A DNA stretch of 64,000 nt from Lachnospiraceae bacterium AC2031. GTDB taxonomy: Bacteria > Bacillota > Clostridia > Lachnospirales > Lachnospiraceae. Positions 1,922-26,644 of this stretch are shown here, one piece after another; within the stretch, counting starts at the first letter, position 1, and each line of letters begins with the position of its first letter. Location: positions 2,084,001 to 2,148,000 of the forward strand of contig JIAB01000001.1 in NCBI GenBank assembly GCA_000687975.1, in the 5' to 3' direction. The position numbers and the translations under genes were made by a program. The notes beneath the pieces are model-generated. The model was not told where the DNA came from. It saw only the letters and a list, made by a program, of their open reading frames with translations, and did no database searches.

Positions 1922-2083
1922 ATGAAGCATATTCAATGGGGAATGCTAACTAATCAATGTTGCGTTATATCCGAAGTTAAAAACATTAGTGCCTTTGCAA
2001 GTGATTTGGATAACTGGGGCGGAGGCTACTTGGTTATAGGAGCAAAGAGCGTGTCTACCCCGACAACTAAGAGGTTGAGATAG
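1922..2083 (+). pseudogene. Fragment of AlbA_2 (Schlafen-type) DNA-binding domain gene
   Basis: A 53-codon open frame starts at the ATG at 1922 and reads MKHIQWGMLTNQ, then VISEVKNISAFASDLDNWGGGYLVIGA before a stop at 2081. The ISAFA...GGGYLVIGA pattern is the core strand-turn of AlbA_2 domains, which begin many ATP-binding transcriptional regulators of 400-500 aa. The rest of such a protein is missing and no continuation is visible in other frames, so I read it as a decayed 5' remnant. AAGGAGGA at 1902-1909 lies somewhat far upstream, and expression as a tiny protein cannot be excluded. A hairpin repeat follows immediately (2089). Confidence 0.45.
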
Positions 2084-2085
2084 AG

Positions 2086-2345
2086 AAAAGCAACAAAAAT
2101 GAGTGACACGTGCCGTAATTGTTGCTTATTGAGCATGATTTATGCATTTGTGATTTGAGAAAACAACAAATATAGGTGAACTAGAACGAAATTGTTGTCG
2201 ATGTACTTGGATATAAGCTTTTTGGGGTAAAAAAAGCAACAAAAAAAGGTGAACTAGAACGAAATTGTTGTCGATGTACTTGGATATAAGCTTTTTGGGT
2301 AAAAAAAGCAACAAAAATGAGTGAAAAGCCCTCAAATTGTTTCCG
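2086..2345 (+). repeat. Four hairpin repeats, 73-75 bp family (upstream locus)
   Basis: Four copies of an inverted repeat: AGCAACA/TGTTGCT (2089-2126), ACAACA/TGTTGT (2163-2208), GCAACA/TGTTGT (about 2238-2283) and GCAACA with a decayed right arm (about 2313-2342). The middle copies are near-exact duplicates with a 75-bp period, both holding GGTGAACTAGAACG and ATATAAGCTTTTTGGG. The right arm changes with the left in copy two (G to A against C to T), which favours a maintained hairpin. The AAAAGCAACAAAAATG core equals that of the large array at 24392. Between 2346 and 2533 I see only A+T-rich sequence with no clear feature except the ribosome site of the next gene. Confidence 0.75.
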
Positions 2346-2533
2346 GTAGAACGACATCAAATTATGAGTATGAAGTAAATTGAATTTCGAGTAAGTGCTA
2401 GTATATAGATCATATAGGTTCAGTATATATTTTGTGCATCGATATGATATATTAGGCTTGTTAGAGCTGGCATATAAAAAGGCAGATACTAATGAAACTA
2501 TTACCAGTTATGGGGTAAAAGGAGGTAGACAAA

Positions 2534-3010: not shown

Positions 3011-3060
3011 GAAAGGATAGATGGATTCCGATAAAGAAAAAATGAGAATTAACATCTGTA

Positions 3061-3099
3061 ATATCCATAGTTAGATACACTAACTATGGATATTTTTAT
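3061..3099 (+). terminator. Rho-independent terminator after flavodoxin
   Basis: Perfect 14-bp stem ATATCCATAGTTAG (3061-3074) with CTAACTATGGATAT (3080-3093), a 5-nt loop, and a T-rich tail reaching 3100. Confidence 0.85.
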
Positions 3100-3228
3100 T
3101 TGGTAGTGGTTCAGCCGTTGGAAGATGCAACAGTTCAATATCTTTCTAACACTTATAGAAAAGAACGAAATTTAGTAGCGAAAAATCATTGATAATGAAT
3201 ATTTATTGCAACTTTGTGAATGATTCTA

Positions 3229-3237
3229 TGTTACAAT
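3229..3237 (+). promoter_or_regulatory. Extended -10 promoter for repeat-headed membrane protein
   Basis: TGTTACAAT forms an extended -10 (TG-n-TACAAT) about 75 nt before the chosen start. The possible -35 TTGCAA at 3206 is 20 nt upstream, too far to be ideal. Confidence 0.4.
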
Positions 3238-3315
3238 ATAGATGTTTTTCAAAATAGATATTTTTATAGCTTAAATATCTTCATATTTACATTGAGTTTC
3301 ACGGGGGGGTGTAAT

Positions 3316-5073
3316 ATGGAAGACTATAACAATACTAATCCAAACGGCAATCAGCAACCAAACCAGACACAGTATGGTTATCAGCAACCAAACCAGACAC
3401 AGTATGGTTATCAACAGCCAAATCAGACACAGTATAATTACCAGCAGTCAAATCAGACGCAGTATAATTACCAGCAGTCAAATCAGACGCAGTATAATTA
3501 TCAGCAGCCAAATCAGACGCAGTATAATTATCAGCAGCCAAATCAAGCGCAGTATGGTTATCAGCAACCAGATCAGACGCAGTATAATTACCAGCCGGTG
3601 AATCAGAAAAAAAATAAGCCGGGTAATTCAGGTGGTCCGAAGAAAAAGACTGGTTTAATAATTGCAATCATTGTTATATTTGCGGTTCTTATTATTGGAG
3701 CTGGTGGTACAGCTGCGTATTTTTATATGAATGAAAAAAAGAATAAGGACGCTGCATCAACCACAGCCAGTGAATTTATGAAGGCGTATGGTAGTCAGGA
3801 TATGAATAATCTTCAGGGCTGCTTCCCTAAACGACTTAAGAAGGAAGATGAGATTGAAGAGTTCACTGATGAGACCAGATATGATGGTGTGAAGTATTTT
3901 GGCTACACGATTAAGGATATTGAAGTGACTGATGCTGAGAAATACAGTGTTGAAACTGCAGAAAAAGATGTGTCAGATGCTTATAAAAAACAACTGGATG
4001 TAAAATCTGCTTATTCGGTAAGTGTTAAGTATACAGAAACCTATGAAAAAGATGGTGAAACAGTAGAGAATACACTGACGGACAATGTCATATGTGGAAA
4101 GATTGATGATCAGTGGTACGTGCTTGATCCGGCACTTATTTCTAAGAAGAATCAGATCGTTGCAGACTTTGATAAAGAGGCGGATGATGGTCAGTCAAAG
4201 GATGTAGTTGAAAAGCTTATGACATGTTTTGCTGAATCCGATCTGGATGGGATGGATGAATGCTTTGCTTCAGCTATCAGGGATGCTGTCTCTACGAAGG
4301 ATAGTAAGGAAGCGTTGACTGAAGACTTTGGCAAACTGAATGAATATGGTATCACTGTTACAGTTGGTGAGTATAGTGTTTCTAAGCCAGAAGATTATGA
4401 GGTTAGAGAAGCAAAGGATAGTGTTAAAAAGGTTTATGGAATAGAACCTGATTTTGACAAATGCCGAAAGTTTACTGTGGATTATTCAGTTACTATAGAA
4501 GTGGACGGAGAGTCAACAAGTAAAGATGCAACAGCAGAATTCACTTGCGGTAAAGAAGATGATAATTGGCATATTTATAATTCAAATATAATAGCTGATT
4601 ATAATGCTCTTTTTTCAGACACCATAGAAGCAAAAGAAACTGAGAAAGATGAAGAAGAAGTAAGAGCAACAATAAATGGTTTTGTTGAGTCTCTTGCGTT
4701 ACTCGATATTGAGACGGTGAAGAGCTATATGCCTGATGCGGTTCTCAATAATGATGATATATCCTCAACGCTTGATAAACTTGAAAGTCAGAAAGCTCAG
4801 TTAGATTCTTATGGAGCGGTTCGTAATTTAGATAGTATTGATATAGGAGACCTCACTAAAGAAAATACAGGCGCTCTTATGATAGAGGTAATGCTTGGAT
4901 ATGAAAACTCGGTACTTTATATAGAAAAGGCTTATTCAACAACAGTTACCTTCGGATTATCCATAAGTCTGAATGGCAGAACGGAATCTGATGTAATTAC
5001 GTCAGATATGATCTGTGCCAAGATTGACGGTAAGTGGTACATACTTCAAGCATCAGTAGTTGAAGATGAATAA
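3316..5073 (+). CDS. Membrane protein: Q/N/Y repeat head, one TM, three repeated extracellular domains (585 aa)
   Basis: The cytoplasmic head (1-100) holds eight 10-residue NQTQYGYQQP-like repeats. A Lys-rich patch and one membrane segment follow (about 112-136, TGLIIAIIVIFAVLIIG). Outside are three related domains of about 150 residues, each ending in a CGKxDDxWY-type motif with Trp at 267, 418 and 574. They resemble NTF2-like DUF4878-type domains, though I cannot fix the family. I use the ATG at 3316 after a G7 run; the longer frame from 3220 adds an unrelated hydrophobic stretch without a ribosome site. The architecture suits a wall- or stress-sensing membrane protein with a low-complexity, possibly condensate-forming cytoplasmic tail. 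The function is unknown. Confidence 0.75.
   Translation: MEDYNNTNPNGNQQPNQTQYGYQQPNQTQYGYQQPNQTQYNYQQSNQTQYNYQQSNQTQYNYQQPNQTQYNYQQPNQAQYGYQQPDQTQYNYQPVNQKKNKPGNSGGPKKKTGLIIAIIVIFAVLIIGAGGTAAYFYMNEKKNKDAASTTASEFMKAYGSQDMNNLQGCFPKRLKKEDEIEEFTDETRYDGVKYFGYTIKDIEVTDAEKYSVETAEKDVSDAYKKQLDVKSAYSVSVKYTETYEKDGETVENTLTDNVICGKIDDQWYVLDPALISKKNQIVADFDKEADDGQSKDVVEKLMTCFAESDLDGMDECFASAIRDAVSTKDSKEALTEDFGKLNEYGITVTVGEYSVSKPEDYEVREAKDSVKKVYGIEPDFDKCRKFTVDYSVTIEVDGESTSKDATAEFTCGKEDDNWHIYNSNIIADYNALFSDTIEAKETEKDEEEVRATINGFVESLALLDIETVKSYMPDAVLNNDDISSTLDKLESQKAQLDSYGAVRNLDSIDIGDLTKENTGALMIEVMLGYENSVLYIEKAYSTTVTFGLSISLNGRTESDVITSDMICAKIDGKWYILQASVVEDE
3361..3600 (+). repeat. Eight tandem 30-bp coding repeats
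   Basis: Units start at 3361, 3391, 3421, 3451, 3481, 3511, 3541 and 3571, each encoding a variant of NQTQYGYQQP. Changes are mostly synonymous or Gly/Asn and Pro/Ser swaps, so the amino-acid repeat appears selected. Copy number may vary between strains. Confidence 0.9.
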
Positions 5074-23125: not shown

Positions 23126-23698
23126 ATGAAAGAATATTTGTTGCTTTTACCACTAATTTTTATATTCCATGACATGGAGGAAGTAGTCGGATTCTGTTGG
23201 TTCTTCAGGAAGAATCCATGGCTTTATGACAGGTTCCCCAAGGTGATGAATGCGTACCGAGGAATCACAAATGAAGGAATGGCGGCTGGCGTGTATGAGG
23301 AGTTTATCCCATTCTTCGGCGTGAGCTTACTGGCTTATTACTTTCCTTGCAAAGTGTTATATGCTCTTTGGTTTGGATTCTTCCTTTCCCTGGCGGCGCA
23401 TTTTATAGTTCATATTGGACATACCATATATCTGAGAAAGTACATTCCAAGTTTTATTACAAGTGTTATATGTCTTCCGGTCAGCGTAAGTATTCTTCTT
23501 AGATGTGCAAGGGTTATGACATTTGACGTCGTTACTGTTATAGCTATCGTGGCAAGTATTCTGCTTATGATGGTGAATCTAAAACTGGCACATGCGGTGG
23601 CGCACTACGTAAATGAAAGAATAACCTCACAAGACTTTACTTTGATGGATCAAGGTCTTAATTCAATGGATCAAGGCCTTAATTCAATGGATAAATGA
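23126..23698 (+). CDS. HXXEE domain membrane protein (190 aa)
   Basis: FHDMEE (about 14-19) is the family's H-x-x-E-E motif, followed by five or so membrane helices (FFGVSLLAYYFPC, ALWFGFFLSLAAHFIVHIGHT, PSFITSVICLPVSVSILL, VVTVIAIVASILLMMV) and a second His pair (HFIVHIGH) that may bind metal. Function of the family is unknown. The C-terminus has two tandem 21-bp duplications (MDQGLNS). Overlaps the FMN reductase reading region by a few bases, so cotranscribed with it under the TetR operators. Confidence 0.82.
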   Translation: MKEYLLLLPLIFIFHDMEEVVGFCWFFRKNPWLYDRFPKVMNAYRGITNEGMAAGVYEEFIPFFGVSLLAYYFPCKVLYALWFGFFLSLAAHFIVHIGHTIYLRKYIPSFITSVICLPVSVSILLRCARVMTFDVVTVIAIVASILLMMVNLKLAHAVAHYVNERITSQDFTLMDQGLNSMDQGLNSMDK

Positions 23699-23709
23699 GG
23701 GGTGAAAGA

Positions 23710-24393
23710 ATGAAAGTTGCGATAATTAATGGTAGCCCAAGAAAGAATGGTGTTACTGCAGAGGCACTTCATATAGTTGAGAATGAGCTTGTGAAAGAAG
23801 GGATAGATGTTGAGTTCTATAATCTTTCTGAGATTAATATGTCCCATTGTCTAGGATGCTGTTCCTGCTATAAGACAGGTCATTGCTGCATCGGCGATGA
23901 TGCGGAGATGCTGTCACAAAAGATATTTGAGGCAGATGGATTGGTGCTAGGTTCGCCTACCTATGCCAGCAATGTGTCCGGTCTTATGAAGGACTTTATC
24001 GATCGAGGCCATTTTGTTATAGAACAGCTGCTACATGGAAAGTACTGCGTGACTATTGCTACAGGAGAAAACTATGGCAATAAGGACGCCCTAAAAGTAC
24101 TCAACAATCTAGTTCTTTATTCAGGTGGAAAGAAGTGCTATGGCTTTGTAATGAATGTTCCTTTCAACAATACTGAGTCAGTCAGAGATGAGTTAGTCAG
24201 AGATGAGTTAGTAGCAAAATGCTATAAAGCATCCGAAAGACTGATAAAGGGGTTAAAGAAAAGGACGCACCATCCAATACAAACTGTGTTAAATCATATT
24301 GTTATTTCAATTGGAATAAGACCTCTGATAAAGCGAAAAGGCTCTGAGTATCAGGGCGTGATTGATAAATGGACCGAACTTGGTATCCACTGA
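23710..24393 (+). CDS. NADPH-dependent FMN reductase / flavodoxin-fold iron-sulfur-type flavoprotein (227 aa)
   Basis: Begins MKVAIINGSPRKNGVT, the FMN phosphate loop, followed by HCLGCCSCYKTGHCC (Cys-rich, as in the family's compact cluster or redox motif) and GSPTYASNVSGLMKDFIDR. I use ATG 23710 with GAGGGG 7 nt upstream rather than ATG 23695, which precedes that site. A 15-bp in-frame duplication gives VRDELVRDELV. The last 50 residues are basic and hydrophobic. The stop codon TGA is part of the first unit of the 73-bp repeat array, so the array may have replaced the original gene end. Confidence 0.87.
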   Translation: MKVAIINGSPRKNGVTAEALHIVENELVKEGIDVEFYNLSEINMSHCLGCCSCYKTGHCCIGDDAEMLSQKIFEADGLVLGSPTYASNVSGLMKDFIDRGHFVIEQLLHGKYCVTIATGENYGNKDALKVLNNLVLYSGGKKCYGFVMNVPFNNTESVRDELVRDELVAKCYKASERLIKGLKKRTHHPIQTVLNHIVISIGIRPLIKRKGSEYQGVIDKWTELGIH

Positions 24394-25215
24394 ACGGGAG
24401 AAAAGCAACAAAAACGCATGAAAAAGGCAGAAATTGTTGCTGAAGTAGCAGAAATAAAGCTACTGAACGGGAGAAAAGCAACAAAAATGCATGAAAAAGG
24501 CAGAAATTGTTGCTGAAGTAGCAGAAATAAAGCTACTGAACGGGAGAAAAGCAACAAAAATGCATGAAAAAGGCAGAAATTGTTGCTGAAGCAGCAGAAA
24601 TAAAGCCACTGAACGGGAGAAAAGCAACAAAAATGCTTGAAAAAGGCAGAAAGTGTTGCTGAAGCAGCAGAAATAAAGCTACTGAACGGGAGAAAAGCAA
24701 CAAAAATGCATGAAAATGATGGAAAGTGTTTCTAAAGCGGCAGAAATAAAGCTACCGAACGGGAGAAAAGCAACACAAATGCCTGAAAATAGTGGAAAGT
24801 GTTGCTGAAGCGGCAGAAATAAAGCTACTGAACGGGAGAAAAGCAACAAAAATGCATGAAAATAACTGAAAGTGTTGCTGAAGCAGCAGAAATAAAGTCA
24901 CTGAACGGGAGAAAAGCAACAAAAATGCCTGATAATAGTGGAAATTGTTGCTGAGGGGCAGAAATTGTTGATGAAGCAGCAGAAATAAAGCTACTGAATG
25001 GGAGAAAAGCAACAAAAATGCATGAAAATAACTGAAAGTGTTGCTGAAGTGGCAGAAATAAAGCCACTGAACGGGAGAAAAGCAACAAAAATGCCTGGAA
25101 ATGATGGAAAGTGTTGCTGAAGCAGCAGAAATAAAGCTACCGAACGGGAGAAAAGCAACACAAATGCCTGGAAATGATGGAAAGTGTTGCTGAGGGGCAG
25201 AAATTGTTGATGAAG
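24392..25215 (+). repeat. Tandem array of eleven 73-bp hairpin units
   Basis: Units beginning GAACGGGAG start at 24392, 24465, 24538, 24611, 24684, 24757, 24830, 24903, 24996, 25069 and 25142. The period is 73 bp except unit 8, which is 93 bp because of a 20-bp internal partial copy; the last unit ends with the same partial copy. Each unit carries AAAAGCAACA and TTGTTGCT or GTGTTGCT arms about 25 nt apart, and most carry a second arm pair across the unit join (GTAGC/GCTAC in units 1-2, GTGGC/GCCAC between units 9 and 10, a compensatory change). Spacers are not unique, so it is not CRISPR. There is no coding frame: 73 is not a multiple of three. Confidence 0.92.
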
Positions 25216-25309: not shown

Positions 25310-26644
25310 ATGGAACAATCCAATAAGAAAACTGGATGGCGAGAAAACAAATGGATACGTGCCGCAATTCCTGCATTGTTATTACACTGCAGTATAGGTA
25401 CAGTATACTGTTGGTCTATATTCAGTCAGGAGATTGCTGATTATATAGGATATTCTAAGGGGGCCACGGAATGGGCTTTTTCCTTTGCAATATTTTTCCT
25501 TGGTATGTCAGCTGCGTTTCTTGGAAATATTGTAGAAAAAGATATTCACAAGTCGTCTCTAATCGCGACTATATGTTTCGCTGCTGGAATGTTTTTAACA
25601 GGAGTCTTCATTCGTTACGGTGGAATGCACAAAGGAAGTCCAGTAGCTTTAATAGGAATCTATCTCAGTTATGGATTTATCATGGGAATTGGTCTCGGAA
25701 CTGGATATCTCTCACCTGTTAAAACATTGATGCTTTGGTTCCAGGATCGAAAAGGACTTGCTACCGGACTTGCTGTAGCAGGTTTTGGAGCTGCGAAAGC
25801 TATTGCTAGTCCGATCATGCAGTCTATGCTTTCAGGACTGGGTGATGGTGGAATTTATAAGATGTTTATGATCCTTGCAGCTGTTTATTTTGTAATGATG
25901 TTTATCGGACACCTACTTCTTGCTAAGCCTGCTGGATGGATTGAACCTCAGGACAAGAGTCAGAAACCTAAAATAATGGAGGTTTTAAAAACAAAGCCTA
26001 TTGCAAACTATATAGGAATATGGCTAATGTTCTATATCAATATAACCTGCGGTCTGGCTTTTATCTCTCAGGAAAAACCTATTGTGAAATGTATAGGGCT
26101 GGTAGGTGCAGCCGGAATAATATCAACTATTTCAGCTATATTCAATGCTGGTGGTCGTTTGGGTTTTTCTGCTTGGGCAGATACTATGAAGGATAGAAAT
26201 ACCATTTATAAGCTTATCTTTATTTTATCGATAGCATTTACGATTCTTGTGATGATTACAGGTGGAATTCGAAACGGAAGTGGAAATCCGTTACTCATCT
26301 TTCTTGTTTTAGCACTTATCTTTGTTGTAAATGCAGGATACGGAGGAGGCTTCTCAAATGTTCCGACTTTGCTATCGGATCACTATGGAATGGGTAGCAT
26401 AAGTGCAATTCACGGTATCACACTTTCTGCCTGGGCCTTTGCAGGACTTACGGGTAATCAGGTAGCTACCTATATAGTAAATCACACGGGAGCATTCGAT
26501 AAAGAGGTTGTAGATGCTCTTGGTAATACGTATATTGTAAATCCAGTGGGATATCAGAATGTTTTGATCTTTACAGTTGCTCTATATATTATTGCATTTC
26601 TCTTGTGCCTCATTCTGGTTAAACCTACTAAGGATAAAGCCTGA
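25310..26644 (+). CDS. OFA-family MFS transporter (444 aa)
   Basis: Twelve-helix major facilitator of the oxalate/formate antiporter (OFA) family. The opening IPALLLHCSIGTVYCWSIFSQEI, then GTGYLSPVKTLMLWFQDRKGLATGLAVAGFGAAKAIASPI (motif-A-like loop and GFGxA signature), and in the second half RLGFSAWADTMKDRNTIY, are characteristic. Substrate is likely a small carboxylate or drug; not determinable. AAAGGA precedes the ATG at 25310; the longer frame from 25274 has none. Monocistronic, ended by the hairpin at 26690. Confidence 0.9.
   Translation: MEQSNKKTGWRENKWIRAAIPALLLHCSIGTVYCWSIFSQEIADYIGYSKGATEWAFSFAIFFLGMSAAFLGNIVEKDIHKSSLIATICFAAGMFLTGVFIRYGGMHKGSPVALIGIYLSYGFIMGIGLGTGYLSPVKTLMLWFQDRKGLATGLAVAGFGAAKAIASPIMQSMLSGLGDGGIYKMFMILAAVYFVMMFIGHLLLAKPAGWIEPQDKSQKPKIMEVLKTKPIANYIGIWLMFYINITCGLAFISQEKPIVKCIGLVGAAGIISTISAIFNAGGRLGFSAWADTMKDRNTIYKLIFILSIAFTILVMITGGIRNGSGNPLLIFLVLALIFVVNAGYGGGFSNVPTLLSDHYGMGSISAIHGITLSAWAFAGLTGNQVATYIVNHTGAFDKEVVDALGNTYIVNPVGYQNVLIFTVALYIIAFLLCLILVKPTKDKA

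Follow-up and report, generated by a model that had tools for sequence, protein, structure and literature searches.

What is the array of 73-bp tandem units that lies between two co-directional genes of Lachnospiraceae bacterium AC2031, and does it belong to a wider system with a protein of its own? Here, we analysed the array in the window that holds it (the whole stretch of 64,000 nucleotides under study), in the rest of that genome (G000) and in related genomes. The reading that we favour, and to which we give about an even chance, is that the array is a dispersed copy of a repeat family resembling the REP elements of RAYT transposases, served by an unrelated, nuclease-like partner protein of 274 aa, denoted p274 (Table 1). 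The initial annotation, made from the letters alone, described eleven tandem units with a 73-bp period, one of them extended to 93 bp by a 20-bp internal copy that recurs at the array end. The description is borne out: GGGAGAAAAGCAACA starts 11 times, with nine spacings of 73 bp and one of 93 bp, the recurrence of the 20 bp is evident in the sequence, and Tandem Repeats Finder (TRF) scores the array at 881 and 1030. The units run head to tail, and the hairpin arms ascribed to each of them are present, CAACA and TGTTG pairing at 5/5 positions in 10 of the 11 units and at 4/5 in the remaining one. The joints are near-identical, so that, as stated at the outset, there are no unique spacers, which sets the array apart from a CRISPR array. 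The claim that the region contains no ORF applies to the strand of the array at a length of at least 80 aa, but two ORFs of 87 aa each cross it on the minus strand. For the downstream gene, which the ORF list opens at TTG (25274), we adopted the ATG as the start, leaving about 95 bp between the array end and that codon. One 93-bp spacing is also found in another array of the same genome (at 835 kb). Elsewhere in the window, at 3350-3595, TRF reports another tandem repeat, with a 30-bp unit in about 8 copies.

Table 1. Coordinates of the array, its neighbours and the p274 gene (window positions unless G000 is named)
Feature	Position	Strand	Description
Tandem array	24391..25215	+	11 units, period 73 bp, one of 93 bp; unit = GGGAGAAAAG CAACA N24 TGTTG + joint
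93-bp unit	24907..24999	+	Internal 20-bp duplication, same 20 bp again at array end
Upstream gene, FMN reductase family	23695..24393	+	Stop codon overlaps array start
Downstream gene, MFS transporter	25311..26644	+	Same direction; start = ATG 25311
Second array, same family	2077..2348	+	4 units, more diverged
p274 gene, 274 aa	1486256-1487080 of G000	-	Directly behind the seven-unit array that follows comEC

A profile built from the sequences of 41 units (R1) had 96 matches in the G000 genome at E <= 1 and 93 at E <= 0.01 within 15 fetched stretches; by our own grouping, these form 18 arrays with about 93 units in 3.19 Mb. The core-to-core spacings (n = 70) are 73 bp in 60 cases, 74 bp in five, 93 bp in two, and 72, 82 and 146 bp in one case each, the last representing one skipped unit. 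Units are near-identical inside one array and diverged from array to array. The two pentamers are nearly fixed over 93 aligned matches (per column, 87-92 of 92 for CAACA and 91-93 of 93 for TGTTG), an invariance that partly reflects how units were picked, since those entering the first profile had been recognised by these very arms. All 18 arrays fall within 0.50-2.11 Mb of contig C1 of G000, the half of the chromosome around dnaA (at 1,714,448), and no match below E 0.5 was obtained elsewhere; 13 arrays are on the minus strand left of dnaA and 5 on the plus strand right of it. Thus, 18 of 18 have the leading-strand orientation, but so do 152 of the 165 genes sampled from this region, so that this orientation adds no independent evidence, and a replication-strand element was set aside. 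In the relatives G026 and G027 (Eubacterium ruminantium FB3002), local GC skew in the direction of the array is positive for 19 of 22 arrays and negative for 3.

Homologues in related genomes, for which the initial annotation had called, do exist. Class I units (profile R2, E <= 1e-5) were detected in 15 of 61 same-genus genomes, including that of AC2031, in a scan that, like all searches over 40 genomes, was run with stricter filters. Across the family, with 13 candidates scored per genome, they were found in 2 of 397 genomes, the second being G415, from another genus, in which the five loci read have GCAGCA/TGCTGC as consensus arms and single units deviate. Within the genus, the number of units varies from none to many among species in a patchy distribution, several of the genomes being incomplete. 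Class II units are present in four genomes, two of which, G078 and G065, have them at two loci. TRF runs over 200 kb of G078 and 200 kb of G022 gave no additional 73-bp array. An origin from phages or plasmids was rejected, given that the first four units had no blastn match in either and that the one viral contig matched by pattern contains no unit at E <= 0.01.

When the flanks of the G000 arrays were compared with those in G026 and G027, one site proved clearly common, namely, that behind comEC. A search with the ComEC end located this site in 53 of the 61 genus genomes, and 50 sites were read (30 + 20). At 21 of these, profile search detected p274-family sequence behind comEC, a count that includes fragments in G020, G027 and G036 and, in G068, a stretch of 23 residues. 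As scored by script, an array lies between comEC and the p274-family sequence at 12 of the 21 sites, compared to 3 of 29 sites that lack such sequence (p = 5.5e-4), and at 12 of 21 compared to 1 of 24 when five sites truncated at contig ends (G005, G013, G017, G025 and G070) are dropped (p = 1.3e-4), p-values that are overstated and purely descriptive because the species are related. The three array-positive sites without p274 comprise two that run into a contig end (G005 and G017) and one, in G024, where the match is inside an ORF beyond the 248-nt gap, the gap itself being free of the repeat; G025, where the script missed two units lying ahead of a contig end, was counted as neither. The 9 of 21 p274 sites with no array in front include five intact genes (G064, G032, G001, G006 and G023), fragments in G020, G027 and G068, and a very diverged sequence in G072. 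A later look behind the gene, which covered those sites with a p274 gene for which the following sequence was at hand, revealed 74-bp arrays directly behind p274 in G006 (about eight units, GCTAACC/GGTTAGC, identity 0.97 over 40 nt) and in G032 (three units with imperfect arms, identity 1.0 over 40 nt), a weaker 73-bp repeat in G073, which perhaps has an array on both sides, and, by eye, decayed inverted repeats in G001 and G064; several comEC loci end soon after the p274 gene.

The abundance of units elsewhere in the genome can be set beside the presence of the gene. Each of the five species with class I p274 (G000, G026, G071, G076 and G084) carries at least 9 class I units genome-wide, and the p274 proteins of the other four are 72-79% identical to that of G000. 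In G027 and G020, only a p274 remnant is left at the comEC site and class I units are kept (29 and 8, respectively), which would fit the loss of the partner after the spread of the repeats. G003 has 6 class I units and a comEC site without a p274 gene; we propose that loss of p274 would explain the units in all three genomes.

The arms themselves differ among species. At the comEC site, arrays of at least two units with CAACA-type left arms occur in G000, G025, G026, G071, G076 and G084, and single CAACA-type units in G003, G004, G020 and G027; the G071 array has the arms GGCAACAA/TTGATGCC, its right arm being TTGATGCC. The other arm pairs at this site are GGCTATAA/TTATAGCC in G065 and G078, GGTAACAAA/TTTGTTACC in G022, GGTAACA/TATTACC in G019, CGGCTAAG/CATAGCCG or similar in G029 and G073, GGCAGACACA/TGTGTCTGCC in G017, ATTAGCC/GGCTAAT in G036, and GGGTAT/ATACCC in G005. 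Across species, the arms are thus altered yet complementary or nearly so, with one mismatch each in G019, G029, G073 and the G071 comEC array. Units of the comEC arrays are spaced at 72-76 bp, apart from those of G005 (50-53 bp) and one 40-bp step in G026; across arm types, the period is 72-76 bp in 9 of the 10 arrays measured.

These arm changes follow the protein. For 11 species, drawn from 15 aligned p274 relatives and assigned by us to four arm classes (G023 by an array that it carries at another site), two p274 proteins are 75.1% identical when their classes agree and 51.9% when they do not, a gap that none of 20,000 label shuffles equalled. The N-terminal part of the protein gives 67.3% within and 38.2% between classes, and the C-terminal part 84.4% and 67.6%. 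The ComEC end at the same loci (about 65 aa) yields 67.3% and 60.7%, which was matched by 194 of 20,000 shuffles; with G065, near-identical to G078, left out, the within-between differences are 22.0 points for p274 and 3.1 points for ComEC. The cleanest case is the comparison of G019, G022 and G073: G019 and G022 have GGTAAyA arms in common and 70% identity in p274 with 56% in ComEC, whereas G019 and G073 have different arms and 75% identity in ComEC with 58% in p274. G029 and G073 have an arm type in common and p274 proteins of only 56% identity, and so add no support. Overall, in these alignments, the arm class follows p274 more than it follows comEC. Given this co-variation and the common comEC site, we conclude that the arrays and p274 go together, a link that the comparative sequence evidence supports well.

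The same data bear on the possibility that the arrays are a neutral or selfish intergenic satellite of the MIRU/STAR type that grows by slippage and relocates by chance, with p274 a bystander at one ancestral site. The homogeneity of units inside arrays and their divergence between arrays, the 20-bp duplication inside the window array and the patchy distribution would all be expected of such a satellite. By contrast, across the 93 units the arms hardly vary although the remainder of the unit drifts (with the reservation that the first profile was arm-selected), they change as pairs and more in step with p274 than with ComEC, and the period is held across arm types, so we consider this explanation improbable.

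What, then, is p274? We found no convincing Pfam, NCBIfam or PDB family match, and none in Pfam up to E 5. Residues 153-265 match the PADLOC model of the defence candidate PDC-S68 (5.7e-27), at the end of its 1221 positions, and PDC-S69 is matched weakly (0.0039). Five residues, E165, P194-D195 and E210-H211, are invariant in all 15 aligned relatives and, judging by motif spacing, look like a variant of the PD-(D/E)XK motif. PDC-S68 is a RecD-like helicase fusion the C-terminal domain of which corresponds to this part of p274; unlike PDC-S68 and PDC-S69, p274 has no helicase part and possesses an N-terminal region of its own as well as repeat arrays. In G078, a RecD-like helicase (L199:6804-10487) whose C-terminal domain is akin to p274 matches PDC-S68 over its full length. 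With tblastn, p274 hit 9 plasmid records, in the C-terminal domains of AAA/RecD-like proteins, and, among phages, three gut contigs; scans of viral_contigs detected no relatives. A p274 relative is encoded at 3048-3836 of a human-gut contig labelled 'Bacteriophage sp.' (L292, MT839528.1), with 32% identity over 83%, and no array is present in the preceding 110 nt. A partner of the Y1/RAYT kind was considered and rejected: Y1_Tnp is present in 22 of 41 relatives, both with and without arrays, and does not follow the arrays, G020 (72% complete), for instance, having 8-15 units and no Y1_Tnp match.

To our knowledge, the start and spread of bacterial intergenic repeat families are understood mainly through REP-RAYT. 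REP/BIME elements and their RAYT transposases combine dispersed intergenic inverted repeats with a dedicated adjoining gene, co-evolution of repeat and protein, a gene presence that goes with repeat abundance, and species specificity (PMC2817692). The p274 system shares these features, namely, dispersed intergenic inverted-repeat units, an adjoining and co-evolving gene, a correspondence between gene presence and repeat abundance, and species specificity. Unlike RAYTs, however, p274 matches no HUH/Y1 model; unlike REPs, which alternate in orientation, the units linked to p274 form direct tandem arrays with a period of 73-74 bp; and instead of the inverted pair that flanks a RAYT gene, the arrays lie before p274 in most species and behind it in others. 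The staphylococcal STAR elements are interspersed intergenic direct repeats with locus-specific sequence, lineage-dependent number, and expansion and contraction (PMC3532100), all of which the present arrays resemble; the abstract names no partner gene, unlike the situation here, where one site is common to many species and the arms track p274. Our arrays also resemble those of the mycobacterial MIRU/VNTR type in being intergenic and tandem, sharing gene direction and overlapping a stop codon. The MIRU/VNTR arrays of mycobacteria consist of intergenic tandem units that match the direction of the genes and overlap stop codons; we know of no inverted arms or partner protein in them. Among open PubMed Central texts, searched with few terms, no title dealt with these arrays or with a p274-repeat pair.

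By analogy with RAYTs, we infer that p274 may mobilise the repeats. Each unit consists of two short inverted arms (here CAACA and TGTTG), about 30 bp apart from start to start, and recurs head to tail every 73-74 bp. The fast-changing N-terminal half of p274 would bind the arm pair, and the conserved C-terminal half, given its nuclease-like character and the same analogy, would introduce nicks or cuts in the units or close to them; repair of the breaks, together with unequal exchange, could then multiply units inside one intergenic site and carry them to others. On this view, the window array would itself be non-autonomous, a side effect of that activity. The arrays behind p274 speak for this reading; against it weigh the nine p274 sites with no array in front, the G029-G073 pair, the single arm mismatches, the units kept in G027, G020 and G003, the gut homologue with no array before it and the shorter period in G005. 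More tentatively, and with somewhat less than an even chance, the whole might be a selfish or defence-derived system in which a small nuclease-like protein, its C-terminal domain common to helicase-type defence candidates, recognises its own species-specific inverted arms, maintains and expands helically phased tandem arrays and seeds them behind genes throughout the chromosome, a convergent counterpart of REP-RAYT without the transposase fold. An unrelated, nuclease-like protein displays the signs of REP-RAYT (neighbourhood, arm-protein co-variation and cognate copies throughout the genome) and may connect a defence-type domain with repeat propagation; with at least four natural arm types, recognition of the repeat by the protein and the birth of arrays become directly testable. 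Of the readings offered in the initial annotation (structural RNA or DNA array, protein-binding array, expanding satellite), the best fit is a protein-linked array that also expands, given that the arm class tracks p274, and the RNA reading is weakened. Nothing in these analyses, which bore on such roles only indirectly, pointed to a function in partition, in the nucleoid or in phase variation.

The placement of the arrays suggests another role, in which p274 would act as a regulatory or architectural protein, with the arrays as its operators or wrapping sites. The arrays would give transcription-unit ends their shape or insulate them, and the nuclease-like domain would be unused for spreading. 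All 18 arrays of G000 are in gaps between called ORFs, some short ORFs being called across arrays. These gaps are short, and where they are co-directional, the array reads in the direction of the gene before it in 27 of 28 cases by automatic ORF calls (16/16 in G000 and 11/12 in G026 and G027); the exception, L134, depends on a 102-aa ORF, and the presence of a 713-aa plus-strand ORF upstream would make that gap convergent. Furthermore, the period of 73-74 bp is close to seven helical turns, with A-runs recurring at intervals of 73/7 bp. Of 25 array consensuses, 18 have k = 7 as the leading harmonic of their A-runs, run shuffles giving an expectation of 2, and phasing in single arrays is mostly non-significant (median p 0.17). 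The mean predicted bend exceeds the genome 99th percentile in 17 of 18 arrays under the AA-wedge model and in 11 of 18 under the 16-step model. However, compared to tiled shuffles of the same unit, the bend stands out (p < 0.05) in only 6 of 18 and 1 of 18 arrays, respectively; curvature, strong against the genome and weak against shuffles, was therefore not accepted as a proven function. The ten proteins examined near arrays are of mixed function, and species of the same genus range from no units to many, which also argues against a regulatory or architectural role, and we regard it as unlikely.

Finally, the arrays could be transcribed into a structural RNA of repeated hairpins. Their sense orientation is compatible with this, as are the folding of about four units (z = -4.1) and the paired arm changes between species. 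Conservation of both stems was examined over 81 consensus rows from 14 genomes, about nine of the rows being chance single matches of a relaxed pattern. One stem-1 pair exceeds the shuffles, pairing in 76 of 81 rows where 68.9 would be expected, with eight rows changed on both sides, five from one genus and three of the chance rows. The second arm pair, placed in the initial annotation across the unit joins, is described exactly for the window, where 5/5 positions pair in 3 of 11 units, 3-4/5 in six and 1/5 in two, but it is not conserved across arrays, and covariation does not support it as a conserved stem: 356 of 729 cells pair, compared to 340.7 +- 9.6 in shuffles (p 0.074; p 0.02 with a slid centre). 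Within G000, arm changes are mostly uncompensated (outer pair A-C in 5 rows and A-T in 2), five rows having an altered CAACA with TGTTG unaltered. No Rfam family reaches the gathering threshold in the window, the sole match at E <= 1 scoring 16.3 bits of the 117 needed. Because of the Rfam result, the uncompensated changes and the lack of second-stem covariation, the RNA reading is weakened, and we hold it to be very improbable. Terminator-like hairpins, counted here without a chance rate, precede the array in 6 of 18 cases in G000 and 12 of 21 in G026 and G027, where the array would fall outside the main transcript, a placement that speaks against the RNA reading, and follow it in 4 of 18 and 2 of 21. 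In G027, a different palindromic dispersed element (GCGCACTGAGCGAGTCATGCAC...) is found after terminators (L140-L147), in several loci between the terminator and a 74-bp array.
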